In this document: positions 24,870-42,421 of the stretch, in pieces
How the letters are laid out: each line of letters begins with the position of its first letter
Position numbering within the stretch: the stretch's first letter is position 1
Assembly (NCBI GenBank): GCA_031763025.1
Contig: JASSKH010000005.1
Location: 7,293,570 to 7,357,569 of the forward strand
Source: Macrocystis pyrifera
Lineage: Eukaryota > Sar > Phaeophyceae > Laminariales > Laminariaceae
Direction of reading: 5' to 3'
Length of the DNA: 64,000 nucleotides
The notes under the pieces: model-generated
What the model was told of the DNA's origin: nothing
Database searches by the model: none
What the model saw: only the letters and a program-made list of their open reading frames with translations
Made by a program: the position numbers and the translations under genes

Positions 24870-25544
24870 CCCCCCCCCGCTATTGGATATAATAGGTACA
24901 ACAAGGGATGGTATAGAGAGGGATAATGCAGGAGCTAGGAGAATAGAGGGATGGGAGCAATGGGTCAAGACCACAACAAGTAAAGTAATAGGGAAGAAGT
25001 TGATAGTAGGCAACATACCAGTAAAATGGTGGGATAGGGAAGTGAAACAGGCGAAAAGAGTAAGGAGACAGTCACACGCAAGATATGGATCGAGTAAAAC
25101 GGCGACAGGATGAGAGGAATATGCTACAGCTAGAAAGACAGCAAAAGGGATGGTAGAGAAAGAGTAGAAAGGGATATAGAAATACGTAGTAAATAAAACG
25201 AACGAAGACTTTGAGGGCGGGATGTCGCAGATGTGGGTAGGGATGCCGGGTAAACAAGCAGAAGAGGCAGACACGGGAATAGTTACCTTAAGAGCACAGA
25301 ACGGTTAGTAGTTCGAGGGGAAAAGGGAAGTACCAGTAGAGCATTGCCGTAAGTTAGGAAGACCCACAGCCAACGAATTGTTCGACGCAGAATTCGAGAA
25401 GGAAATCAACGCGTGGGCAGAGGCGAACGCAGATGCATCAGAAAAGGAAGACAGTGGTTCGGGAGGGTTACAGAGAGAGTTCACAAGGGAAGAAGTAAAG
25501 AAGTGTGTAGCTAAACTTAAGAATAGAAAGGCAGCAGAGGCAGA
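24870..25544 (+). mobile_element. LINE (non-LTR) fragment, linker and RT start
   Basis: An open block at 24883-25113 encodes VKWWDREVKQAKRVRRQSH, the basic linker found between the endonuclease and RT domains of non-LTR retrotransposons. After interrupted text, 25378-25544 encodes FTREEVKKCVAKLKNRKAA, the first RT motif region (family form: EEV..AI.KLKN.KAAG.DG). The frame is then cut off by the LTR starting at 25545, and the rest of RT is not found to its right. The 5' part (endonuclease) is also missing. It belongs to the same broad class as the 3' piece at 44.2-44.9 kb, but the two do not overlap, so relatedness is unproven. Confidence 0.65.
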
Positions 25545-25822
25545 TGTTATGATGCTGCCTTGTATGAGGCGGAAAGCCCGGTAATTACCTGGGTTCAGGT
25601 ACTGGGATCGTATTTGTAGTACTTAGGAGGCGTATCTTCGAGGGAAAACCAGGCGTTTTCCCAGCGAGGCACGAACTTGGGTCTCAGCCTCCGCGTGCAC
25701 GAAAGGATTAAAGCTGCTCTTCTTCTATCTCCAAGCAAACAACACACGTGAGTACCAACGACTACCGACTTAATAGGCAAACCTGCGCAGGGATACAAAG
25801 GGTCCCAACCTTGATCTTAACA
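25545..25822 (+). repeat. element A left LTR (probable)
   Basis: It starts TGTTATGATGCTGCC and ends CTTGATCTTAACA. It is followed by AGTGGCGTCGACGGCG, whose TGGCG is a plausible start of a primer-binding site. It interrupts the LINE fragment to its left. Confidence 0.6.
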
Positions 25823-27089
25823 AGTGGCGTCGACGGCGGGACATGGATCGTTGGCCGTGACTTCGAATCTCATGTCCACCACGAAATCGCTTTTAAAGAA
25901 AAGTGAATTCTTCATGTCAAGAATCTGAAAAAATGCTTCCGGATCCCCAAAAATTGGAACCGCATGTTGGTGGCACGTCGACCCGTGTATCCGGTCCGTT
26001 CCGGGGGGGAGAGTGTTATAAGGCTTTCATTTGGGTAGGTGATTGGTTAACCTTTTACCAATAGCGCAACGGACGAAGACCTCAACATATGGCGTCGTTG
26101 GCAGGACCAAATTTCTGCCCGTCCGCCGCCAGCATTGCCGGGAGAAAAAAGATTGACTTCACAAGATGCTCGTGTCCCAGGCTCGCTCAGTGCTCGGCGC
26201 CGACCTACCCCGATCTCGCCCCGCACGTTACCCCGTACTTCGGACCGACGCAGCGACTCAACCTCACTTGTTTCACCGGGGAACCCCCGGGCGTCTCCCC
26301 TGGCGTCGGGAGTCCGCGCCTTCAACGCCACTCCCCTCGGCCTGGGCACGAGAGCAGGCGCACCAAACGCCGCTCTCCCGAACCACGCACGGCGCAACAC
26401 CACGAGTGTCGCGCCTTCGCGTTTATTTTTTCAGCGAAGGTGTCCCCCTCCTTCACCCCCCGGCCATGCGGTGGGGGTCGGTTTGAAGTGCGGGAAGGCC
26501 AGCAACGAAACCCCTAGATCTCGGTTGAAGCCCGACTCGGCATTTCCTCGCAATAACGGTGGCCGCTCCACCCTTTTTCTATCAATGAGGTGTCGGCAAG
26601 ATTAGCTACCTCGTCCGCCTTCCCCACCAGGTCTACAGAAAGGACGCCCTCTCCGGTGGGCACTTTGTTGCCCCCCACCCGAGCACCGTTCTTGAAGTCG
26701 TCTACAGGGTCTGCAGGCCCTCTCTCGTCTTCGCGCACGCCACTCCACGTGCGCAGCGCTACTTCGACTCCAGTGGAACAGGGGAAACCTGACACTGCCC
26801 GTCGAGCCAGTGGTGACTCCATGGCCTCCGGTCAGATAAACTGGACGGCATACCCGTTAAATAGGGAGAATCGCAGATCTTGTCTCTAGAAGAACGGGCT
26901 CAGAGCCTCCTGCCCCCTTTGGCCCAAGACAGAGACCATCGGGCGCAGTAAAAGAACTTTCTGGTATTTTTTTGCCTACGGGCAATGGTGACACAGAGCC
27001 AGTATACGTGGAACCGGACTCGTCTCGTGCACCAGGGGCTCAGTGTTCTCAGAGAAGCACACTCCCCCCCCCACACGCCGCTACTGCGG

Positions 27090-27615
27090 CCACCGACGAC
27101 TCGGCACCGTCGGTCTTTGACCCTACTCTCGCGTATTCAACGGAGCGGGTGGTACTGTTCTGGCAGCCTCCCCTCTTATTTTTCGCAGCGGTCCCCTTCG
27201 TCTTTTGTCATCGACGATGTGTCATTTTCCTGCGCGGAGCAGTAAATGAAGGCTGAAAAGGCTCGCCTTTTTCAGGACCACGGCACAGCGGAGCGAATTA
27301 TGGCCTTGCCAGACCCACGCGAGCACAAACACCTCGGTCGAGGCGTGCATAACTTCGACAGCGCTATCTGGGACCGTGTTCGGGAAGACGCCGTCTTTGA
27401 TGGTAATTTTACCAAATTCTCGCAGAACCCGGTCATGAAGCAGCACCTATTGAGCACTGGCACCAAAATTTGGGCTGAAGCCAGCCCTTTTGATGCCGTG
27501 TGGGGCATCGATCTCCGGGCAGACGAACCCGAAGCTCAAGACCCCTCTCGGTGGCGTGGGAAAAATTTGCTCGGTAAAGCTCTTTCCGCCGTTCGCGACA
27601 CCCTCAGCTCAAGTG
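27090..27615 (+). other. NADAR (YbiA-like) domain inside element A
   Basis: The text SSFVIDDVSFSCAEQ, MKAEKARLFQDHGTAERI, NFTKFSQNP, EASPFDAVWGI and RWRGKNLLGKALSAVRD follows the NADAR (DUF1768/YbiA) family from its second strand to its last helix. NADAR proteins are N-glycosidase-type enzymes: YbiA cleaves riboflavin-pathway intermediates, and other members act on ADP-ribosylated guanine or are linked to NAD/ADP-ribose metabolism. Its C-terminal half and the retroviral-type aspartic protease lie in one reading frame (27.25-28.09 kb), so it is part of the element and not a neighbour gene. It sits between gag and protease. The element is a broken fossil, so present activity is not claimed. A role against host ADP-ribose signalling or nucleic-acid ADP-ribosylation is inference. 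Confidence 0.85.
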
Positions 27616-30600
27616 AGGCCGGGTTGGCACACCCCGCCTCCTCTCATCAATTTTGCACCCCAACCAGGACTGACAGAATTCATGAGATTGCACCAGCGCC
27701 GCCCCGCCCTTTGGCCGTGGCCCGCGTTTGCCCAGGCCCTCCTTTGGATTTTTCGACCTATTTTTCTGACGCGCCGGCTGATCACAGCCCCGAGGATTTG
27801 GCTGTCGCACCTAGTGTCGACTCCTCCCTCGCGCTGCCAGAACACGGCCCCTGCCTCGTCGGGGGCACCATTATCCTCGATGACGCCTCTTTTACAACCA
27901 AAATCGCGGTTCACAGCGGAATTGGCGTTCTTGCACCTTTTGGTTGCGTGGCGCTTCTTGACACTGGCTCCCCACAGACTTTCATCCGACGAGATGTTTT
28001 GGATCGCATGCACTCGATTGGTGCGGCATCCCTCGCGTGCGAGCAGAAAGGCGCCCCTCGTTCTTGGGAGGTTTTGGCGAATCGGCCCCTCTGAAGACTT
28101 CGACGAGTGTGCGCCTGAGAGTCCATTTTTTTCGAGAAAATGAGCCTACCTGCTCCCTCGCAGTTTGGGCCTGCGAGGTTCCCCCCTCGGTGATGCAGCA
28201 TGCTGTATTATTGGGACGTGACAGCTGGGTGCGTTTTAATAGTCGCTCCTACCGCTCTCTGCCACCTCGGCCGTCTGATCAGCGCGTTTTCGGTGGGCTG
28301 GAGTTAGTTCACTACGCCCCGACCGGCATGTCCGTGTACGCCATCGACCCCGCCGCTTCGGGTGGAGGCCTCCATCTACGCTACGAGGGCGCGGCAGGCC
28401 TCACTCTGTCCGACGATCCTCAACTGCCTGTTGTTAACGTGGTTCGAAGCGATGGCTCCCCGGCCCTCACTGGACACTACTTGGTCGACATGATGCCCCA
28501 GCCCGACCTACCCTCGGTCGAGGAGCACTTCGTCTCCTCCGGACGACAGGTTCTTCCCCTCGTTGGAGTGGCGGCGCTCGAGCCGGGGGATATCCTCGGC
28601 GTTGCCCACGCCCCACTGCTGAGCGTCCCGCTGGGCGTTTTGCAGCGGGACAACCGAGCCCCCAGCCCTCCCTCCGGACTAGCTGAGGTGTGTCCGGTCT
28701 CAGCAGTCACTGCTCCCCCCCTCGCAGCTCCAGCCTCGCCCTCGCCTGCACTGCTTGAGCGTTTGACCTCAGAACAGCGCGCTTCGTTCCTGCGCGTCTG
28801 GGCACGCTTGCCGTCACATCTGCGGGAGGGGGCTTTTGACCTCCACGGCACAGGCTGAACCCCTGGGATCATCGAACAGCTCGGGGACATTCTCTGCGAA
28901 TTTCCTGACGTTTTCTCGAAGTCCAAGTCTGATTTTGGTTCCTGTTCGTTGATGCCTTTCGTGATCTCGGTCCCGGAAGGAAGCGCTCCTGTCACGTCCA
29001 GGCCGCACCGTATCAACCCCATCCTGGCCAAGGAAGTGGAGGCCACCTTGGATCAGTACCTAGCGGCAGGTCTGATCCAGCACTCGACTTCTCTGTACTC
29101 AAGCCCGCTGGTGGTCACCTCCAAGAAGTCTGGAGACGTTCGGATCACCGTGAACCACAAAAAACTCAACCAGATCAGCAACCTCAGTCAGCTGCCTATT
29201 CCTCGCGTGGACCAAGTCCTCGACTCCCTGGGGAAGGGACCGGTGTTTTCCCTCTTCGATTTGGTCTCCTCGTTCCACCAGATTACCGCGCACAAGAACA
29301 CCGTCCCTCTCACGGCGTTTTGCACTCCCACGGGCCTTTACGAGTGGCTCGTCATGCCCCAAGGCAGCAGTGCTTCGCCCGGCTAGTTCGTCAAAGTGAT
29401 TAACGAAGTCATTAAAGGCCTGGCACAAGTGGCGGCCTACCTTGATGATGTGATCGTTTTCGACTCTGACCCGACGACCCACGTCAGGACGATACGATCC
29501 CTCTTCGAACGCCTGCGTAAACACAACCTCAAGCTCTCCCCATCGAAGGCTCGCCTCGGCGCCACGTACGCAAATTTTCTGGGCCACTCCATTTCGCCCG
29601 CGGGTATAAGCCCTAATGCGGAAAAAGTTTCGTTTGAAAATGCCCATGCCCAAGAACCTCAAGCAGGTCCGCGCCTGATGGGCGGCGTAGGATATTAACG
29701 CAAATTCCTGCCCGACCTGTCTAAACGGATACGTCCTCTCACCGCCCTTCTCCGGAAGGGGGTCAAGTACGTCTTCACGCTGGCTATGGAAGGTATCGTC
29801 CGTCAGATCCTCGCCGAGCTCGCTGCCCCACCGATTTTGGTCTTCCCTGACTGGGACGCCGTAGCCGACGGCTCCCGCCCCTTCCACGTGTACTGCGACG
29901 CCTGCATCGACGGTTTTGGTGCCGCGCTCGAACAAGAACAACCGGACGGCCCGGTACGGCCCATTGCTTATATCAGCCGCGCTACCCTCGATTCCGAGAG
30001 GCACTAGACACCGTTGGACCTGCAAGCTGGCAGCATTGTCTGGGCCATCAAGCGACTCTGAGGTTACCTGTGGGGTACGAAGTTTCGAATATTTTCAGAC
30101 CACAAAGCACTTGAGAGCATCGGCATAGTAGGGGACCACAACGCCCGAGTCTAGCGGTGGCTCGAGTTCCTCACCGCGTTCGACTGCACCCTCGAGTACC
30201 GCAAGGGCAGCGCCAACGGAAATGCTGACTTTCTCTCTCGCTTGCCGGAGCCCGCCACAAAACACGACCGCAGTGGGTCTAGCTGCCTCAACCCCGTCGA
30301 GGACGGTGGTATCTTCCTCATCCGAGCCTGCGGGCTTCGCACTCGCTCTTCGCCGACCCCTGGTGTCGGTTTGGGTGGGCTGGTGTCCCGCAGTGAAAGT
30401 GCCGTCTTGGGTGGGCTACCTTTCACCTCTTCGGATTTTCGCGATTTTCGCACACACGGGCCACGTATGAGGATTGACGACCTCTCTGCTCCTTCGGGGA
30501 GATTCGTCGCTCGTGTAGCTGCTTCCGTCGCCACCGTCGACCGCCGTCCTGGCTTGAGGGCTTTTTCACCCCCCGCCAACTCCGCTTTCGCTTCGGTTTT

Positions 30601-32324
30601 TGTCGTTCCCTCCGGGGACGACCAGGGCTCTGCAGAAGCTCCCGCTGCAGTGATGATTGTCGCCCAGCGCGCTCCTCTCCCGACGAGCACTTTACAGGGC
30701 GAAGATTCCACCGTGAGCACTGCTCCGGCCGCGTCTTCCCTTTCGGGCCAGGGCTCTGCAGAAGCCCCCGCTGCAGCGACGATTGTCGCCCAGCTCGCTC
30801 CTCCCCCGACGAGCACTTTACAGGGAGAAGATTTCGCTGTGATCACTGATCCGGCCGCGTCTGCCCCATCGCCGCCTGGCAACCCGGCGCCTCTGAACGT
30901 TTTGCCGTCTTCAGGCCGCATCTCAACTCGGACGCGCCGAAGAACAGCCGCCGCCGCTGGCACCGTGCCGCCTGCTGTTGATTTTGGCTTCGGGCCCGGT
31001 GGGGCCCCTAGACCACCAGCCCGGCGTGCTATCCCCGCCGCGAGCCCCACGGCCACGACCGCCCGCACTCGTCGTTTGGCCCCGATTCCTACCGCCTCGT
31101 CCGTCCCGACGGTACCCATCTAGTCCGGCCGCGACCGCGCCAAGCCCGTGGGAACTCCTCCTTTACGGCTTCCGCCGCCAACTGACGCACCTCCCGTCAC
31201 CTCGACCGACTTGGACGCCCTCGGCGCAGCTGCCGAATTTCAGTTCGGTGATTCCGCAGCGCGCTATTCGCACGCCGACTGAGCTCGGGAACAACAGTCT
31301 GAGCCCGCGTGCAACGCCGCCATGCGCTACATAGCCCTTGGCCGGCCGGAAGTTTTGCCAGACGACTTTTTGTCGGGTTTCCCTTCCCACCAGCGCCCTT
31401 CCTTTTCGGAGGTTCAGGAGCTGGTCAACAAAGGCCGCTTGCACTCCACCGACGCGGGCATCGTTCTACTTGTCCGACAACGGTCCCCCCCCCCCCCCTG
31501 CGTCGGATACGCAGCGCCCGGTGGGTCGTACGGCCTGTTTATTGGACGACGAGCCTATTCGCATTTATGTGCCGCTGCTCATGCGCCCCTGGGTCATGCA
31601 TGCTTGCCATTCCACGGCTTCCTGCCACCTAGGAACCGCGCGCACCCTACGTATGCTCGAACGTTTCTACTGGTGGATCGGTATGAGCATCTGCACCCGG
31701 TGGTGGCTACGCAACTGCTTAAAGTGCCAAGCGCGGAAAACGTCGCGGCAGACGGTCCGGTGGCCCTCCATCACGTTGCCCCTGCCAGAAAGGCCCGGCA
31801 TCGCCGTCAGCATAAACTATTTCGGCCCTCTCCCGGTGACGCCTCGAGGTAATACCTACATCTTGCTTTTCACTGATCGTTTCAGCCGCCGAGCCGACAT
31901 GTACGCCGTCACCGCTACAGAGTTCACCGCTGAGGGCACGGCCAACATTCTCATCAACCGGTATATCCCTCTTTGGGGGTGCCCGCGCAGCATCCTCTCG
32001 GACAACGGCCTCCAGTTCTGCTCCAAGCTTTCGCACGCCGTATATCAGCTTCTCGGGGTTCGAACAATTGCCACCAGCTCCTGGCACCCAAACGGCAACG
32101 GTGGGGTGGAACTTGTAAACCACACGATGGCCCAGATGCTGGCAATGGTCGTCAACGAGCTCCAAAACAACTGGGATGAACAGCTCCCATACGTCGAATT
32201 TGCGTACAACAATTCCGTCAGTGCCACCACGGGTTTGGCTCCCAACGAGGTACATATGGGTCGGCTGCCACGCCTCTCTCTCACGATTTTCGAGCGTGCT
32301 GGAGTCGCCGGCCACCAGAGCTTG

Positions 32325-32845
32325 TGTTGCAGCGCCGACAGTGCTTCGAGGAGGATAATACGGCGCGAGACAGCTGTTCTGATCAGTGTCACGCGTCGGG
32401 TCTATTCGATAGGCAGAGGGAAAGCTTTGGTTAGCATCCTCTGGGCGGATCTTATAGAGGCAGGGAGGATCCCCGGTGTGGGAATGCCTTCGGTCTCGGG
32501 TACAGAGCCAGTAACGAGGTTCCGAGACCACCCGGTGTTTACAAAACACCACCAAGTGAAGAAAGAAAGTCAAAGCCAAGTGATCTGTGATACCTGTCCT
32601 ATCGATCCCCAGCCCCTTGGGCCCTGCCTTGCCCGTCGTGCCCGTCATCGTGTCTGTGATGCTTCGTTGAGTGTTCACGCTGACTGCTTGCATCTACCGC
32701 ATTGCATCCATCCACGTTCTGCGTGACCCGATCATTACTGCTTGAAGGCACTTCCTCGAACTCCCAAACAACAGGTGGGCCGGCCTCAGAGATCTAACGA
32801 GCGCAGGTCCTTTTTACGGTCTGAGAGCTGTACCCTGCTGTAACA
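32325..32845 (+). repeat. element B left LTR
   Basis: 521 bp, TG...CA ends, pairs with 39888-40407. Confidence 0.9.
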
Positions 32846-35800
32846 CGGTGAACCCAGGGAGAATCCAGGTGGGAACTGACGTTAAGCAATATCTCACTCC
32901 GGTACACGTGGACGCCGGTAAACCTCTGGATCCGTACATGGTACACCGCGGAGAAGTTTCTCACGGCATATTCTACGGCTTGATCAATGCACTGCTCACC
33001 CGGTGCAGTCGTTACCCCCTAGCCACGGCACCCCTGACGGGACGGAGCCGAGGCAGCGTAGCGGGGCTAACGCAGAGTCAGCGGCTGCCCCTGGGGCAGA
33101 ACGAGAGACGAAGGGGTTTCCGTCGAGGGAAGAATGGGGGGAAAGAGGTAAACCGCGCACCAGGGAACTACCCAAGGCGTGGAGGAAGAAGGTAGAGGCG
33201 CTCCGGGACAGCGCGTGCGCGGCGCTGGCTGCTGTAGACGGGGAATTTTCCTCTGAGGGCGAGGAGGAAGAGGGGAAGGACGTGGAGGAGGAAGCGTTTG
33301 ACGATCGCCCAAACGTCGCGTCCTTTTCCAACGTCCGCGCTTCCACCCCGGGTGCACATGGAACCCCGTTTGTAAGCCGCAAAGGTGACCGAAACGACCG
33401 CCCGGGCAGTAGGAACCGAGAAACAACGGACCGCAGGGAGGAATGGGACGAACTACCGAGCCAGGATGCCGAAGACAAGGTGATTATCGACGCCTTGCGC
33501 CAACGAAGGGTCTGCTTCTTTCATGCGAGGGGTTCCGACTCCCCCTATAAGAGCGCTGCCGGTGGAGGAAGGTGCCGCTTCTCGCACGACGAGGACGTCG
33601 TGCCGTACGGATCGTACCCCCGCAAGACCACCCCGACGCAAGCCCTGCAGCTAGAGCCTGGTATGCTTATGGCACTCGAAATGCTGAGCACGTACACGGC
33701 CGAGGAGGGTGGGGCCGCCGCAGGTGCCTCGCGTGTCTTGCGGGCCTGAAGACGCGCCCCAGGAGGTTCTCTCCTGGGGAACAGCAGCCAAAGTGAGCAA
33801 CAAACGCGGGGTCGGGAGGAAGAAGAGGAGAGACGCAGTACCTACGACGCCGCTTCGACAAAGGGCGGGGGGGGCGCTAACAACGATGAGGTCGTCCCGG
33901 TGCAGCAGTACAGCAACTTCGCGTTGAGCGCCCTAGATGTGGACACCCCAAGCAGCGTGGCGGCCATGGGAGCGGGGGCTAAGCAGGTGTGGGTGCGCGC
34001 ATTCGTGTGGTACCACACCAGAACCAGTTGCGGCATTCCTGTGGAGGTGCTGGTCGACACGGGGGCAGGGGGTGGAAATTACTCTTCCGCGGCATTCGTA
34101 CGCTCCGTCGAACGCAGTGGAAGAGGGGGGCAATCGATGATGAGCCCGAGGGGACAGGGGTGGTTGAGGGCAGCCAACCCCACGAACAGCGCAGTCCTGC
34201 CAATGAAAAATTCCGGGTCGTGCGAGCTCCCGTTGGTGTTCAGCCCGGAGAACAGGGTGCGCAAGGTACTGGTGCGGGTGGTGGAGGATCTCCCGTACGG
34301 CCTTATCATAGGAGCAGCGTTCCTGAGAAAGAATGGCAGCACTATCAAACCGGCACCAGAGTCACCTTGGGTGCCCTTCATCTCGTCAACAGGAGCCTCC
34401 TCGTCAAAGGTGGCGGAGCGGAAGGCGGTGAGCTGGCATGCGTCTGTCCAACCGAGCAGAGCAGAAGTGGAGCCAGTGGCGGCCGGGAACACGGCAACGT
34501 GGGAGAAATTTTGCGCCGTCAAGCCACCCTGTGGAGAGGGAGAGCCGGCGGAAGTAACCGAGCCGCCCGCACAACTCAGCGAGGGCTCAGCGGCCTGGGA
34601 GGACGATGGCACCCTACAGTGGGAGCTACGTCCAGCCCAACATACGGTGGTACCGGGTTTCGTCAGCGCGCAGGTGGACGCTTATGCCAAGGGAGTCCAA
34701 CCCCAAGACAGGCAGCTGGTGGTAGTGGAACCGAAGGCTTCATACGACATGGAGACGGGGGCAGAGTTGGGGATCGCGCGCGGGGCGCAGTGGTGGCGCC
34801 CCGGAACGCCGCTCCAGTGCAAGGTGGTGAACCGTTCGAAAGTACCCTTAGCACTGAAGCAGGGCGGGGTCGTTGCTCGGATTTACGCCATCAACACGAG
34901 GGACAAGGAACGTATGCGGATGCTATTAGACCTCGTCGTTCAGGCAGACGGCACATCGGAGATGAAGGAACAGTCAGTACTGGTGGTGCCGGAGGAACGC
35001 GCGGGCGAGGGGGCGGACACCGACGGGGTGGACTTGTCGATGGCCAACATCGCTCAGACGAGTGCCCCAGTGAAGGAAGCCCTGATTCGAGCGTTGGAGA
35101 AGTACCGCCATGTGTTCCCGGTGAACCCGAAGATTGTCCCGGCCTGCAATCGAGCTAAGTTGCAGCTTCCGCTGACTGACAACAGTTGCACGCCCCACGC
35201 AGCGAAACAGCGACGGTATTCGCCGGAAAAAACGGCCATGATCCACAGCGAGGTGGCGAAGCAACAGAAAGCAGGGACAATTCGCCGGTCGCAGTCAGCG
35301 TGGGCAGCAAACTGCGTCGTTGTGGCAAAACAGGATGGCACGGCGAGGGTCTGTCAGGATTATCGAGGGCTGAACGCGTTGCTGGAGTCCAATAGCGGAG
35401 GGCTGGGGGATATCGCAAGCATTTTCGACAACATGAGGGGCGCCACGTGCTTCACGTCCATTGATCTAGCGTCAGGTTTCACCCAGTTGGAAATTGCCGA
35501 GGAAGACAAGCACAAGACCGCATTTTGTGACGCCCATGGGGATCTGTGGGAATTCAACCGGTGCGGTCTTGGGCTGAAGATCCTTCCTTCCGGCTTTGCG
35601 CCTATGTGGGGGAGACTCTGGGTCCGCTAAAAGGAAAGGCGTGCAGAACTGGCTTGACGACATCATCATCCACACCAAAACACGTCGAGGGACATGTGGG
35701 CCTGGTGGAGAAAGTGCTGGCGCGGCTCCAGCAATTTGAGTTGTCGGTGAACCTGGCCAAATCGACTTGGTGCGCTCCGCAGCAGGAGTTCGTCGGCATG

Positions 35801-36689
35801 GTTGTCGGCAGACTGGGCGTACAACCGTCAAAAACGAAGATAGAAGCGGTGGCCAGACTCTCTCGCGCTAACACTGTGGAGGAGGTCAGGTCACTTTTGG
35901 GCATGCGCAGCTACCTCAGGAAGTTTGTGCCCGGATACAGCTCGATCGTGGCGCCTATCTCGGACCTGCTCAGGGACAAGCGGTTCGCGTCAAAAAAGGC
36001 AAGGAGGCTCCGGGTGCCGTGGGGGGTGGAGCAGGACAAGGCCCTGAAGGCGCTGATCGAGCTCCTCACATCGCCATTGATTTTGGCGTTGCCCAATCGG
36101 GAGGTCACGTTTCAACTGCATACGGACGCCAGCGAGCTGGGTGCGGGAGCGGCGCTTACGCAGGATACCAGGGGAGAGGAACGTGTCGTTGGATACGCGA
36201 GCCACCGGTGGTCAAGGACGGATGCCAAACGGTCCGCAACCGAACGAGAGGTGATGCCAGTGTTGTGAGCCATCCAGCATTTCAGACCGTATTTGTGGGG
36301 AAGGAGATTCGTTCTGTTCACCGACTGCTCCGCGCTCACGTAGCTGTTCAAGAGCCAGGCCCTCTCGTCGAAACTCCACCGGTGGGCGCTCAGGTTGATG
36401 GAGCACGACATCAACCTCCAGTGACGACCGGGGGCAAACCATCAGTTCCCGGACGCCCTCTCGAGGCTGCCGCCGAACGACGCGCCGCGCATGGACATCG
36501 ATGACTCATTCCCAGACGATCCCTCGACGAGGACCACGTACCGGGGCCCCAAGGGACCGGTGCTCGACGGCGTACTGCTCAGCGAACTGGGGGCAGACGA
36601 GGTGAACAAGCCAACGGGGGAAAACGCGGCGGTTGCGGCAAGCGTAATTTTTACCCCAGGCAGAGCCGTCGACGCAGACACTGAGAGAG

Positions 36690-37240
36690 CCGCCACAACG
36701 TCCGCAGTCGAGGAGCATCCAGTCGCCGTGGTACTCTGCTGCGGGGGGGGAGGTGGTCTCATGGCGGCGAAGGAGATGGTCGCAGTCAAGGGTGCCACCG
36801 ACCACGACTGGAGAGCGCTCGAGTGTGTTAGGGAGAACGGGTTGGACCAAGGAGTTCGACTGGTGAGAGCGGAACCAGAGGGGAAAGATTGCAAAAGGCT
36901 CTTGAACGACTTGAGCCCGAGCGTCGTGATGGGAGATGCATCCAGAAAGTCAGACCAGCGGGGACCCGGTGGAGCAGCAACCTTGGCAACGAATATCGTG
37001 AAGGCCTTCATTGATTCGACGGCCAGGGTTCTCCTGCTGGAATGCTACCCGAATCTACTTCGGTCGACGGAGTGGGGGCAGGTAGTGCTGCCTGCGTTGA
37101 AGGAAGCGGCGTGTACGGTGGAGACAGTCGAAATGGCGGCGGACATCGTGGGGGTTCCGTCGGGGAAGAGGAAGGCGTTCGCTGTCGGCGTGGAAGGTGA
37201 GAGGCTAAGGGAGTGGAGGAGGGATATAGAAAGGCGCGAC
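36690..37240 (+). other. cytosine-5 DNA methyltransferase-like domain inside element B
   Basis: The order of motifs follows the C5-methyltransferase fold. A glycine-rich SAM-binding start VVLCCGGGGGLMAAKEM corresponds to motif I. LNDLSPSVVMGDASRKSDQR lies at the motif III-IV position. VLLLECYPNLLRSTEWGQVV corresponds to the EN(V) motif VI region. VEMAADIVGVPSGKRKAFAV corresponds to motif VIII (Q-x-R-x-R) and the end of the catalytic part. Not every signature is recognisable, so I call it methyltransferase-like and make no claim of activity. It lies between RNase H and integrase, inside the LTRs. Capture of C5-methyltransferases by retrotransposons of some algae is known, to my knowledge. Self-marking or escape from silencing is the proposed role, which remains inference here. 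Confidence 0.7.
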
Positions 37241-39887
37241 CCAGGGTGCACATTTCTAGGTAGATTCTTGGGGAGGAGGTGAACCCACTTCCTCAAGCGA
37301 GGCGTGGAAGAGAGGGGGGTCTATTCTTTTGACGATCCAACCATTTCCATCACTCGAACGCACATCATGGGCGAGAAACTCCCCGAAGGAACGTACATAC
37401 CGCACCCCTCGGACCCAAGCGATATCGACCAAGCAGACGAGCTGACTTTTGCGGAATACAAAAAACTCGCCACCGGACGAGCGGACTACCGAGTGCTCCC
37501 AACCGTCAGCAGGGGAGCAGCGGCCGCGATGTTGGCGGACTTTTCATTGCCACCTATGGCGAGAGAGGCCTTATCGGGGTTGTGGGCAAAGGGGCTGTTG
37601 ATAGACAAAGCCAGGGGGGGGCAGCTCCACGGAACTAAATCGCTGGAAGGCTTGCAGGCGCTCTTCGAGGAGGACATAGCCGAGGTAACGTCGGCGGTCA
37701 CGAGGTCCAGAGCGGGCGTAGTGGGAGGAAGGTCAACAGAGCAGCATGCGCAGGTGCCAATGCCGCTTGTTACACAGTCGACCCCGTCAGCACTGCCGTC
37801 GTCATCGCAGGTACAACCCACGTAAAACTTGCCGCCACAGTCCAGAGCACAGCCCCAGCCGAGGCGGCGAGCACCGAGAGCGGAATACTCGGAATACCCG
37901 GGACCCCTTCCTTCCATGGTCGACTGGGTAGCGGAAGTGCTGAGTGATAAGCCACGACTGGTGCAACGGCAACGGGAGGACGCGCGACTTGGCCCCATTT
38001 GGGGCAGATTGCGAGGAAGAGGTGACAGGCAGTCACCGGAAGGGATGGCGAACTACGTTCTCGACGACAACGACTTATTGTGGAGCGCGCCTCGGGGGGA
38101 GGCACCGAAGTTGGCCATTCCGCGAGCATTAGTGCCAGGGGTGCTGGCACTCGTGCTCAGTACCTACGGCCACTCGGGAGTTGCGCGGACCCTCCTGCTG
38201 ATTAAGGGCAAGTACGGATGGCTGACAGTAGCCCAGGACGTCAGGGAGTACGTACTGTCGTGCGGTTGCAAGAGGAGAAAAAGGGCCCGGAGCCAATGCG
38301 TGGCCATGATGCCTGCTCGGTTACTGTGGCCTTGGGAAGTGCTTGAGATGGACCTCCAGGACATGAAGCAGGTATCCAGCGCAGGGGATAGGTACCTGCT
38401 GGTAGTGGTGGATCGGGCCAGCCAGTTCCTGTTTTGCGTACCCGCTGGAATCTAAGGATTCGGTGGGAGTGGCCAGGAAACTCCTGGAGCTGTTACTCAC
38501 GTTTGGCGTGCCGCTGTCGATTAGGAGCGATGCCGGGGGGGAGTTCACCGCTAAGGTGGTCGCTCACCTGTGCCAGTGGCTCAGGGTGGAGCTAGATCAC
38601 GGTCCTGCTGACCACCCTCGTAGTCAAGGAGCCGTGGAAAGGATGGGGGGGTGACTTCAGGAGGTCTTGGCGGAGCTTTGCAAATCTGGGCCGGCAAGGT
38701 GGGACGAATATGTAAGCGCGGCTTGCTGGATTCAAAGGACTACGCCGGACCCGCGTCTCCCGTCAGGTGGGACGCCCTTCAAGATTCTGTTTGGTCGTGA
38801 TGCGCGCACAAACTTGGATGCTCTTACTCCTGCGCTGGACGGCGAAAATTTCCGCCCTGGGCTCGACAATTTCGTGGCGGAGAGACACCAGACGTTCATG
38901 GAACTGCGGGCAATGTTGAAGAAGCGTCAGGAGGACAAGAACAAGCGACGCGTAAGCCACAATGCGGCCATTAGGCGACACTCTCCAGGCGAAGGGGCGC
39001 GAGTGGGAGACCCGATGCTGGTAAAGGAGGCAGACAGCAAGATGGCGCGGGAGGGCACTCACGTCAAACTAGCACATGAACACTGGACGGGGCCGTGGCG
39101 GGCGACAGCCATTGCACAGCCGGGTATCAGCTACCAGGCGACCATGAGCGGCCGCCGGACCCGGAGGAGGACGGTTTCGGTTGCCAACATTAAGGAATTT
39201 CACGTGCGGCCGGAGCATCTGCGCCATGCCTTCGAGGACGAATTCGCGCATCTGGCATAGGGCGTGGACTTGGGGTTGGCAGACACCTCGACGGTGGCGG
39301 TGCCGCTCTATACCCTGACGGACCGGCGAGCCATGGAGAGCACGGGGACCGGGTGGGAATGGCAGTACCGAGGCCGATACCAAAGTGGGGTGGAGTCAGA
39401 GTGGCTACCTGAACAGGAAGTAAGGGACAGCTTCACCCCTCTGCAACTCGACGTCTTCCATGCCCTCTGGGAAGTGTACAAGGGAAAGGACTGCCGCCTC
39501 CGGCCGCCGGAACCACTACCGAAGGAAGAGCGTGACCAGGGGCTGCGAACGAGAGCGCTGCAGGACTTTCCGACGGGGACGCAGGTCAGGCGGTCGTTTG
39601 CTGGAACTGATGGGGTGAGTCGAGCGGCGGTAGGAAAGGTGTGCGACTTTAGGGAGCCGTATTGGCGAGTGAGACACCCCTGACGGAGATTGGGAGGAGC
39701 TTAACCGCAGCGAAGTGACTCGCGGGGTCGAGGAACACCGGAGCGCCGCGGGCCAGAGATGACCCCCGTCAGCAACAGGCGGGGAACGGAAGCGGTGAGC
39801 CGATTAGCATGGGGGGGAGAAGAAGAAGCATTCGGCTGCTGGGGGGGGCCGTTTTGCTCCGGTGCATGCTGCGTCGGGCAGGGGGGG

Positions 39888-40407
39888 TGTTGCAGCGCCG
39901 ACAGTGCTTCGAGGAGGATAATACGGCGCGAGACAGCTGTTCTGATCAGTGTCACGCGTCGGGTCTATTCGATAGGCGGAGGGAAAGCTGTGGTTAGCAT
40001 CCTCTGGGCGGATCTTATAGGGGCAGGGAGGATCCCCGGTGTGGGAACGCCTTCGGTCTCGGGGACAGAGCCAGTAACGAGGTTCCGGGACCACCGGTGT
40101 TTACAAAACACCACCAAGTGAAGAAAGAAAGTCAAAGCCAAGTGATCTGTGATACCTGTCCTATCGATCCCCAGCTCCTTGGGCCCTGCCTTGCCCGTCG
40201 TGCCCGTCATCGTGTCTGTGATGCTTCGTTGAGTGTTCACGCTGACTGCTTGCATCTACCGCATTGCATCCATCCACGTTCTGCGTGACCCGATCATTAC
40301 TGCTTGAAGGCACTTCCTCGAACTCCCAAACAACAGGTGAGCTGGCCTCAGAGATCTAACGAGCGCAGGTCCTTTTTACGGTCTGAGAGCTGTACCCTGC
40401 TGTAACA
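39888..40407 (+). repeat. element B right LTR
   Basis: 520 bp, differing from the left LTR by about ten changes. It is preceded by a G-run (polypurine tract) and followed by the CTTG duplication and the resumed element A integrase. Confidence 0.9.
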
Positions 40408-42141
40408 CTTGGCCTGCGACCACCTCGCCTACTGCGACTTGGCGACGGACCGCCAGCAGCGCGCGTACGATGTCGTTCGAGAACACCACGCCCTCACTGT
40501 TGCTCGCGTGAACCGCCACAACTCCACCCTCTCCGACGCCCGGCGTCCGGTCCCCAAATTTGACGTTGGCGGTTGGGTGTGGGTGTACAATACGGCGGCC
40601 ACCATCCGCCAGGGCGCGAAACCAGACACGGACGCCAAGGTCCTCAAGACCAAACTCTCACTCAACTGGACGGGCCCCCCTACAAAGTTCTCGCAGTTGG
40701 CCCCTGCTCCTCAGCGGACGCCCCAGATGGATTTCCTCTCGGAGCAAAGCTCCTGTTTTTGGATCTTCCTTCCGATATGCCCGGCGCTGAGGCTCGCCGG
40801 CGCGTATCTGTTCAACGCTGCAAGCCCTGTGCCAACCCCCACGACCGTGGTGACATGCCGAAGTATTTGCCGGCGGGGTTGACGCAATACGTGCTCAATA
40901 ATTTCTCCAAGACATCCCCCCCGTACCACGTCACCGAGGACGACGTTTCGACCCCTCTTGAACGACTCGAAGTGGAAAAGATTACTGGACATCAATCGGT
41001 TAGAGGTCGAGGTGGCGTCATCGCGGTGATGTACGAGACGCACTGGACAGGACTATCCCGGCTATCCTGGGAACGGGAAATGGACCTTTTGCTTTCTCTC
41101 CACGCAATTTTGCGCTACTGGGCCGGCACCCCGAACCAACACCGCCAAACCAACCGCCTGTACCGCCGAATGAGAATTGGTGGGGCACAACGGGAGCTTT
41201 CTCGGAGTAACGGCGAGCGGTTTCTGGCGCCCGGCTATGGCTGCGTATCGCACGTCGATTGGCTCCGCCGACACAGCAAAACTGTACTTCCCAACGGGGC
41301 CCACTTTTGGTACAAGGGTGACGACGGTCTGTGGTGGCTCGGGAAAATCAGCGCGACTACACCGACGGATGGAGTATATTTGGTTCGATTTTTGGACGAC
41401 CCGGGACCAATCAAGCTTCCTCTTTCTCCGGCGCGCTACACGACTTCGACGAGAGCTGTACGAGGTTCTTGGTGTCTGCAAATTCACTTGGCTAGCGCGT
41501 TTGCACGGGGGGCCCAGCGTAACGTAAATGAATCTCGAGGCGCCGCCGTGGATAGCTGATTTTCGCTTCTTGACTGCACTCGATATTTATCTTTTTTGTC
41601 GTTTTCCTGGACTTTTGGAGGTGTTTTTAGTTTTTTTTTTGTTTGTTCTATGTGTTTCTGGTTTGCTTCCTCTTCTTTTTTTTTTTTTGGGCTGGGTTGG
41701 GGATGTGTTTTTGCGTAATTTGTCCTGCCTACCCCCCCCGCTCAGTGCCGGGTCTGGTCTGGGTAATCGGCCGCTCATTTGCGGCCCAGGACGCGTTTAC
41801 AGAGTTGTGGGCTGGGTTTAGGTGGTTCTTGCCGTCTTCCGTGTTATTTTTCTTTTCGTTTCCGTATTCAGCTTTCGCTTTTCCATGCATCTTCCTCGCC
41901 TCCCCCCCCCGTGCGGGCTGCACGGCGATGGCTTTCATTGACGATTTCTTCCTGCCCCTTAAGGCTAGGTCTTCCCTTCATTTTTTTTTACGTACTTTGC
42001 CGGCTTCGGTGTCTCGCCGTTCAGAGGTGTGGGAGTGGGTTTTGAGGAGCCGCATCTTCGACTTATGTTCTAGTTCGTGGAATCGGGGTTTCCATGAATT
42101 CCCCATAATTCTGCATATACGGCTCATCAGAGTGGGCTAGT

Positions 42142-42421
42142 GTTATGATACTGCTTTGCATGAGGTTGGAAGCCCGGTAATTACCTGGGTTCAGGCACTG
42201 GGAACGTATTTGTAGTACTTGGAAGGCGTATCTTAGATGGAAAACCAGGGGTTTTCCAGAGATGCACGAGCTTAGTCTCAGTCTCCGCGTGCACGAAAGG
42301 AATAAAACTGCTGCTCTCCTTCTATCGCTAAGCAAACAACACACGTGAGTACCAACGAGTACCGACTTAATAGGCAGACCTGTCCAGGGATGCAAAGTGT
42401 CCCGCATGCTTGATCTTAACA
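42142..42421 (+). repeat. element A right LTR (probable)
   Basis: It starts TGTTATGATACTGC and ends CTTGATCTTAACA. It is about 88% identical to 25545-25822 and also similar to the solo LTR at 390-669. Confidence 0.65.

Follow-up and report, generated by a model that had tools for sequence, protein, structure and literature searches.

A predicted NADAR domain at the start of Pol in Ty3/gypsy retrotransposons of the kelp Macrocystis pyrifera

Members of the NADAR family, including an orphan eukaryotic protein of the YbiA type, hydrolyse guanine-ADP-ribose, an activity that has been demonstrated for the Phytophthora NADAR (PMC11543638). In September 2025, a Gypsy lineage of the brown alga Ectocarpus (Gypsy-12_Ec32) was described whose Pol carries a domain of this family at its N-terminus, and a horizontal acquisition was suggested on the grounds that the blastp matches from outside Ectocarpus were almost all bacterial (PMC12477816). 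NADAR-bearing Gypsy elements of brown algae have therefore already been published (PMC12477816) and are not reported here for the first time; beyond that paper, no report of a NADAR domain in an LTR element was found among the passages returned by our literature search.

Here, we analyze one such element in a window of 64,000 nucleotides from the kelp Macrocystis pyrifera (contig JASSKH010000005.1, positions 7,293,570 to 7,357,569 of the forward strand), together with its relatives in the same genome and in protein databases. The present work adds a second genome, in which the elements are present in many copies, their division into families, a subfamily from which reverse transcriptase (RT) has been deleted, evidence on the active site and the fold, and a result on the nearest kin of the element NADARs. 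Coordinates are counted from the first letter of the window, and all features lie on the plus strand unless stated otherwise.

Anatomy of the copy in the window

Judged by its domain order, the window copy appears to be an old, dead, gag-deleted brown-algal LTR retrotransposon of the Ty3/gypsy type, and the Pol polyprotein of its lineage is predicted to start with NADAR, in the arrangement gag / NADAR-protease-RT-RNase H-integrase. The copy is called dead, or a pseudogene, because its NADAR domain contains a stop codon and a frameshift, gag is mostly deleted, the two LTRs have diverged to 87% identity, and pol is interrupted by a second LTR element.

The 5' LTR (25545-25822, with TG...CA ends) is identical to the 3' LTR (42141-42421) at 246 of 283 positions; the former matches LTR pieces in the relatives L014, L015, L020, L025, L026 and L027, and the relatives end at the latter. 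By eye, no target-site duplication is visible at the ends of the copy, which, for a copy of this age, is weak evidence. ORF text at 25312-25544, which we take to resemble the reverse-transcriptase region of a LINE, runs up to the start of the 5' LTR and ends there, as would be expected if a LINE had been the insertion site of the NADAR element. Elsewhere in the window, positions 390-643 of the minus strand match the LTR of the NADAR element at ~74-76% and are probably an old solo LTR or a fragment of one.

Downstream of the 5' LTR, a leader is fused to the end of gag (25823-26115), and most of gag is deleted: L015, L020 and L025-L027 carry a gag-like ORF of ~1 kb ahead of their junction with the window at 26113-26115, and this sequence is missing here. 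The motif CX2CX4HX4C is absent from the plus-strand frames of 25545-27140.

An earlier, sequence-only reading of the window had assigned the stretch 27090-27615 to a NADAR domain of the YbiA type, and this identity was borne out by a Pfam profile search, in which PF08719 matched the ORF starting at 27246 with an E value of 3.5e-38, over profile positions 44-162 of 163. The domain starts at about 27116-27150 and ends at 27605, so that the span of that reading began slightly early and ended about right. Its N-terminal part continues in the frame of the 27246 ORF back to ~27180, past an in-frame TAA (27243-27245), and the NADAR sequence before ~27170 lies in another frame; the domain is thus broken by a frameshift near 27170 and by the TAA, with the remainder open. 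The C-terminal 120 residues of NADAR share the frame of the ORF at 27246-28094 with the aspartic protease motif LLDTGSPQTF (27954-27983), in agreement with the earlier claim that the C-terminal half of the domain and this motif are read in one frame. On the window, the Pfam protease profile reaches an E value of only 0.24, and all 20 long loci read from the same genome (see below) contain a counterpart of the protease segment, at 47-94% identity.

The reverse transcriptase (28859-29698; RVT_1 E 2.8e-9) has a broken frame, with 92% identity and one TAG relative to an RT query from family A, the family of the window copy. The end of RT and the RNase H region (29699-30007) are 93-98.5% identical in 8/8 family-A loci, and an RT_RNaseH domain is present in the open frame of L009. 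Two tandem units of ~124 bp lie inside pol (30622-30871), the unit being matched by the relatives at a varying number of places. The integrase (31335-32324) comprises an H2C2 zinc-binding domain (PF17921, E 1.7e-12) and a core (rve, E 2.1e-6), the latter scoring 28.3 bits, under its cut-off of 32.6 bits.

A different Ty3-like LTR element, with direct repeats at ~32324-32831 and 39887-40393 (97-99% identical) and an RNase H of its own (RT_RNaseH_2, E 1.4e-18), is nested in the NADAR element at 32325-40407. The relatives break off at 32324 and restart at 40407-40409 (in L009, the two parts overlap by 4 bp); they run across the insertion site, and therefore the second LTR element jumped into the NADAR element. 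The NADAR element is old and broken, and the nested LTR element is younger. On the far side of the insertion, the C-terminal part of the NADAR-element pol (40564-41559) is continuous with the relatives and includes a chromodomain-like stretch that stays below threshold (Chromo E 0.048, 14 bits against a cut-off of 25.1; in L020, E 0.17, also below the cut-off); no chromodomain was found in the two family-B loci that were scanned.

Copies and families in the kelp genome

A NADAR profile search of the genome yielded 1264 candidates, the best 150 of which were scored, all 150 exceeding the cut-off, with E values as low as 9.4e-51. The match was stop-free at 126 of these 150 places and contained stops at 24, in a sample that is biased towards conserved copies by the choice of the best-scoring places. 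Twenty long loci, all on the plus strand and chosen mostly for long open frames, were then read. NADAR, protease and RT follow in this order in 20/20 loci, including eight family-B loci with only 42-53 matching RT residues; an RNase H segment is present in 12/20 and integrase in 18/20 (the exceptions being L014 and L028). NADAR and the protease motif occupy a single stop-free frame in 17/20 loci (all except L011, L025 and L027), which rules out that NADAR is an unrelated neighbouring gene, and a chance match to the family is ruled out by the PF08719 E value given above together with the 20/20 loci.

Gag-like homology precedes NADAR in 19/20 loci, L009 being the exception, and a CX2CX4HX4C knuckle is found upstream in 5/20. 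The label "gag" rests on position and on this knuckle, because a Pfam scan of two of these upstream ORFs identified no gag domain. The gag-NADAR-protease order that the sequence-only reading had proposed thus recurs in other copies, and its assignment of the domain to a Ty3/gypsy element is upheld by the flanking LTRs, by the protease-RT-RNase H-integrase order and by the many copies. Its description of NADAR as cargo between gag and pol is correct for those copies with gag-like sequence upstream, but not for the window, where gag is mostly deleted.

Pairing of the two domains was also followed across the genome. Between the best-150 NADAR list and the best-150 RT list, 49 of the 150 NADAR places are followed, on their own strand and at a distance of 1.2-1.9 kb, by an RT match, and there are no NADAR-RT pairs that are reversed or on opposite strands. 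NADAR is found upstream of 74 of the 150 RT places when these are compared with the best-150 NADAR list plus 100 matches from the search for a kelp copy of the stand-alone gene discussed below. Missing partners are uninformative in either direction, because each list holds the best 150 matches and the RT query comes from family A. Beyond the kelp, a search of 5.8 billion proteins returned 187 relatives at E <=1e-3; among the 120 of these that were listed, 23 have NADAR followed by the protease motif, metagenomic relatives included.

Sequence comparison indicates at least three NADAR-bearing families in the genome, namely A (the window type), B and C. Their RTs are 78% (A-B), 72-76% (A-C) and 76-81% (B-C) identical, and their NADAR domains 51% (A-B), 54-57% (A-C) and 44-48% (B-C). 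Family C accounts for 10 of the 14 loci in a further set, 4 of the 10 having an in-frame protease motif within the 1.1 kb read. A protein search with the family-B NADAR domain gave 23 proteins, among them P0172 and P0243 (54% identical).

RT is deleted in 8 of the 12 family-B loci (L011, L013, L016-L019, L023 and L024), all of which keep NADAR, protease and integrase. The deletion of RT/RNase H is identical in all eight, with breakpoints at ~3966 and 5140 of L010 and a net loss of 1175 bp each, and the simplest reading is that this subfamily arose by a single deletion and then multiplied, presumably in trans.

Active site, selection and origin of the element NADARs

In the Phytophthora NADAR, ADP-ribose is contacted by E43, K50, R79, Y84, D86, W89, R93, E125, D130 and W133, and K75 lies nearby (PMC11543638). 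From an alignment with the structure of this protein (8bau) and a numbering offset of two derived by hand, the counterparts of E43, K50 and E125 are columns E33, K40 and E113, respectively. Among 42 rows (41 distinct family-A and family-B copies and the window), E33 and K40 are each kept in 40, with two gaps each, and E113 in all 42; the window copy has both the E43 and the K50 equivalents. Across 31 diverse NADARs, the equivalents of E43, K50 and E125 are invariant. In ten aligned rows, R67, W77, R81, D118 and W121 (by hand, the counterparts of R79, W89, R93, D130 and W133) are likewise invariant and K63 (K75) is nearly so, the Y84 position is occupied by Phe, and D86 is not conserved. In family C, compared by eye, the first glutamate is present in 9/9 rows covering its position, the last glutamate in 9/9 and the lysine in 7/9, with Asn in its place in L172 and L180. 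The E125 position holds Glu in the kelp elements, Asp in BC4488 and the DarT1-linked NADARs, and His in phage NADARs; this glutamate marks the YbiA subfamily and not the DarT1-linked or phage types.

An AF2 model of the NADAR domain of one copy (pLDDT 96) has the fold of the ADP-ribose-bound Phytophthora nicotianae protein (8bau; TM 0.91), with which the element NADAR has ADP-ribose contacts in common at 32% sequence identity. Escherichia coli YbiA (2b3w) has the same fold at TM 0.80 and is 26% identical. Both are cellular proteins and, unlike the element NADAR, are not part of a Pol polyprotein.

Between L009 (family A) and L010 (family B), dN and dS are 0.44 and 2.59 for NADAR, 0.376 and 1.71 for the protease, and 0.154 and 1.99 for RT, and the NADAR-protease linker has a dN of 0.93 with saturated dS; A-B ratios are rough because dS is near saturation, and they would have no bearing on selection inside the element if A and B took their NADARs from different sources. 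The median pN/pS between A and B is 0.46 for NADAR (96 pairs), 0.43 for the protease, 0.20 for RT and 0.18 for RNase H; within A (28 pairs), the corresponding medians are 0.52, 0.35, 0.33 and 0.72. Within B, the pairwise NADAR median of 0.14 (0.143; 66 pairs) differs from the ratio obtained by variant counts, which give 0.411 nonsynonymous to synonymous changes per site in 12 B copies (0.367 in the eight RT-deleted and 0.726 in the four full-length loci, the latter from 7 variants) and 0.479 in eight A copies. All within-family ratios are lowered by the choice of copies on NADAR score. Purifying selection among copies, a point raised by the sequence-only reading, is thus favoured by the NADAR dN of the A-B comparison, which is below that of the linker, but the within-family picture is mixed, the A-A ratio of NADAR not being below those of the protease and RT.

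In three trees, the A- and C-type NADARs join stand-alone brown-algal proteins (support 99, 98/96 and 100/99). These stand-alone kin, so assigned from protein length and content, come from Ectocarpus sp. 13 AM-2016, Ectocarpus fasciculatus, Pylaiella littoralis, Scytosiphon promiscuus and one further eukaryote, and the protease motif is absent from all five. In four of them (P0141, P0177, P0199 and P0216), the N-terminus is rich in Cys and His (PGCS ... C ... H) and may form a small zinc finger. No kelp copy of the stand-alone gene was found among the best 150 matches, all of which are <=59% identical, and introns could hide one. Family B forms a separate clade with its metagenomic kin (100; 100/100; 100/100 in the three trees) among bacterial and other rows; the scan of bacterial genomes contributed 80 of 227 relatives as loci and that of viral contigs 46, and only samples of these entered the trees.

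Topology tests bear on how many captures are needed. A tree in which all 29 element rows form one group, with the brown-algal proteins left out of it, is worse by 27 log units (p-AU 0.0367), and a single element-NADAR clade with these proteins outside is weakly rejected (AU p 0.0302 and 0.0367 in two tests). With the brown-algal proteins included as part of one clade, the cost is 9 log units (p-AU 0.215), and the AU test does not reject this arrangement (p 0.224 and 0.215). A grouping of the brown-algal proteins with A but without C has p 0.551, and A plus C without the brown-algal proteins receives a support of only 89/71. For A and C, a bacterium as the direct donor is not favoured, the nearest kin being the stand-alone brown-algal proteins (98/96, 100/99), although a bacterial root could lie further back. 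A NADAR tree, which had been proposed as the way to the donor lineage, thus places A and C nearest to stand-alone brown-algal proteins but leaves B apart. Either B would derive from another source, or a single capture would have been followed by the origin of the brown-algal cellular gene from an A/C element.

It is conceivable, although we regard it as doubtful, that NADAR has been exchanged on more than one occasion between genes of brown algae and the Pol of Ty3/gypsy elements: the element lineage may have taken up the domain at least twice, in which case the source of B would differ from that of A and C, or once, with the cellular gene later arising from the element, and the domain may have been repeatedly useful as a shield against nucleic-acid ADP-ribosylation. 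We know of no report of nucleic-acid ADP-ribosylation as a defence in algae, and no measurement of this modification in brown algae was found among the passages returned by our literature search.

Possible roles and relation to known systems

The explanation that we tentatively prefer, at somewhat less than an even chance, is that the window holds a dead, gag-deleted copy of a NADAR-Pol element whose NADAR is predicted to remove ADP-ribose from the RNA or cDNA of the element. The domain would be made as part of Pol and would be packaged into the virus-like particle alongside the protease, RT and integrase, where it could be cut free or stay tethered. There, it would hydrolyse ADP-ribose off nucleic-acid bases (guanine) on the element RNA or the nascent cDNA, and this removal would keep the template copyable where the host attaches ADP-ribose to nucleic acids, be it as damage or in defence. 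Such a counter-defence role fits the guanine-ADP-ribose hydrolase activity of other NADARs and the conserved binding residues. Against it, we count the results of six-frame searches, which found no match to DarT in the genome (a weak negative) and only one exon of a PARP, as well as the lysine missing in 2/9 family-C rows and the unclear within-family constraint, with copies chosen by NADAR score.

The conserved ADP-ribose-binding residues are equally compatible with a domain that acts on small ADP-ribose derivatives or on by-products of RNA repair or processing, and not on base adducts of the element. Processing of RNA intermediates was suggested for the Ectocarpus elements (PMC12477816), and many viral NADARs have been argued to target soluble derivatives or RNA-processing by-products (PMC9503650). 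The same source holds that the NADARs in polyproteins of eukaryotic RNA viruses primarily target macromolecular ADP-ribosylation (PMC9503650), and the element NADAR is likewise a polyprotein domain; we consider a small-molecule substrate unlikely. If the domain were no longer an enzyme and instead had a structural or binding function within Pol, such as tethering ADP-ribose or nucleic acid, the large A-B divergence outside the active site (51% identity) and the loss of the lysine in two family-C rows would be readily accommodated, but the two glutamates and the lysine are kept in nearly all A and B rows and across the 31 diverse NADARs, and this role appears improbable.

Carriage of a captured NADAR without benefit to the element is consistent with its persistence in the RT-deleted B subfamily (8/12 B loci, with the common 1175-bp deletion), with the near-identity of many B copies, which leaves little time for decay, and with the unclear within-family constraint. 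The domain has nevertheless been retained in three families with RTs 72-81% identical, metagenomic relatives keep NADAR ahead of the protease motif (within the 23 among the 120 of 187 listed), and its dN (0.44) is well below that of the linker (0.93), all of which makes passive carriage quite improbable. A metabolic role, as an N-glycosidase on riboflavin-pathway intermediates or in cleaning the nucleotide pool, could draw on the ribosyl N-glycosidase activity on riboflavin intermediates that has been assigned to NADARs (PMC9503650), but it offers no reason for a domain inside Pol, nothing in this analysis supports it, and we judge it very improbable.

If the element NADARs do remove ADP-ribose from element RNA or cDNA, as we prefer to think, retroelements with an ADP-ribose eraser would suggest that brown-algal transposons may be under pressure from the ADP-ribosylation of nucleic acids. 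The high copy number (the best 150 of 1264 candidates all being over the cut-off) offers a large set of natural variants, and a cellular counterpart for comparison is available in the stand-alone NADAR proteins of brown algae.

Among known systems, the NADARs of nidoviruses and of hepe-like and picorna-type viruses also belong to the polyprotein of an RNA-based replicator; they are likened to the kelp elements by description, and their carriers differ in being animal RNA viruses without a protease-RT-integrase Pol (PMC9503650). A Tx1 LINE of Crassostrea gigas, again likened by description, has NADAR inside a retroelement protein too, but in ORF1 instead of Pol, and in a non-LTR element (PMC12477816). 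The stand-alone brown-algal proteins, the nearest kin identified here, are not discussed in the passages of PMC12477816 that deal with these elements. Closest of the described elements is Gypsy-12_Ec32 of Ectocarpus, which has NADAR in the N-terminal region of Pol, as do the kelp elements; it also has a putative C-terminal chromodomain (PMC12477816), and the kelp copy in the window has a chromodomain-like stretch that scores below threshold. The two sets of NADAR-bearing Gypsy elements belong to different species and are compared by description, and what the kelp adds to the Ectocarpus lineage is a set of three families, a subfamily that has lost RT and, as nearest kin of A and C, the stand-alone brown-algal proteins.
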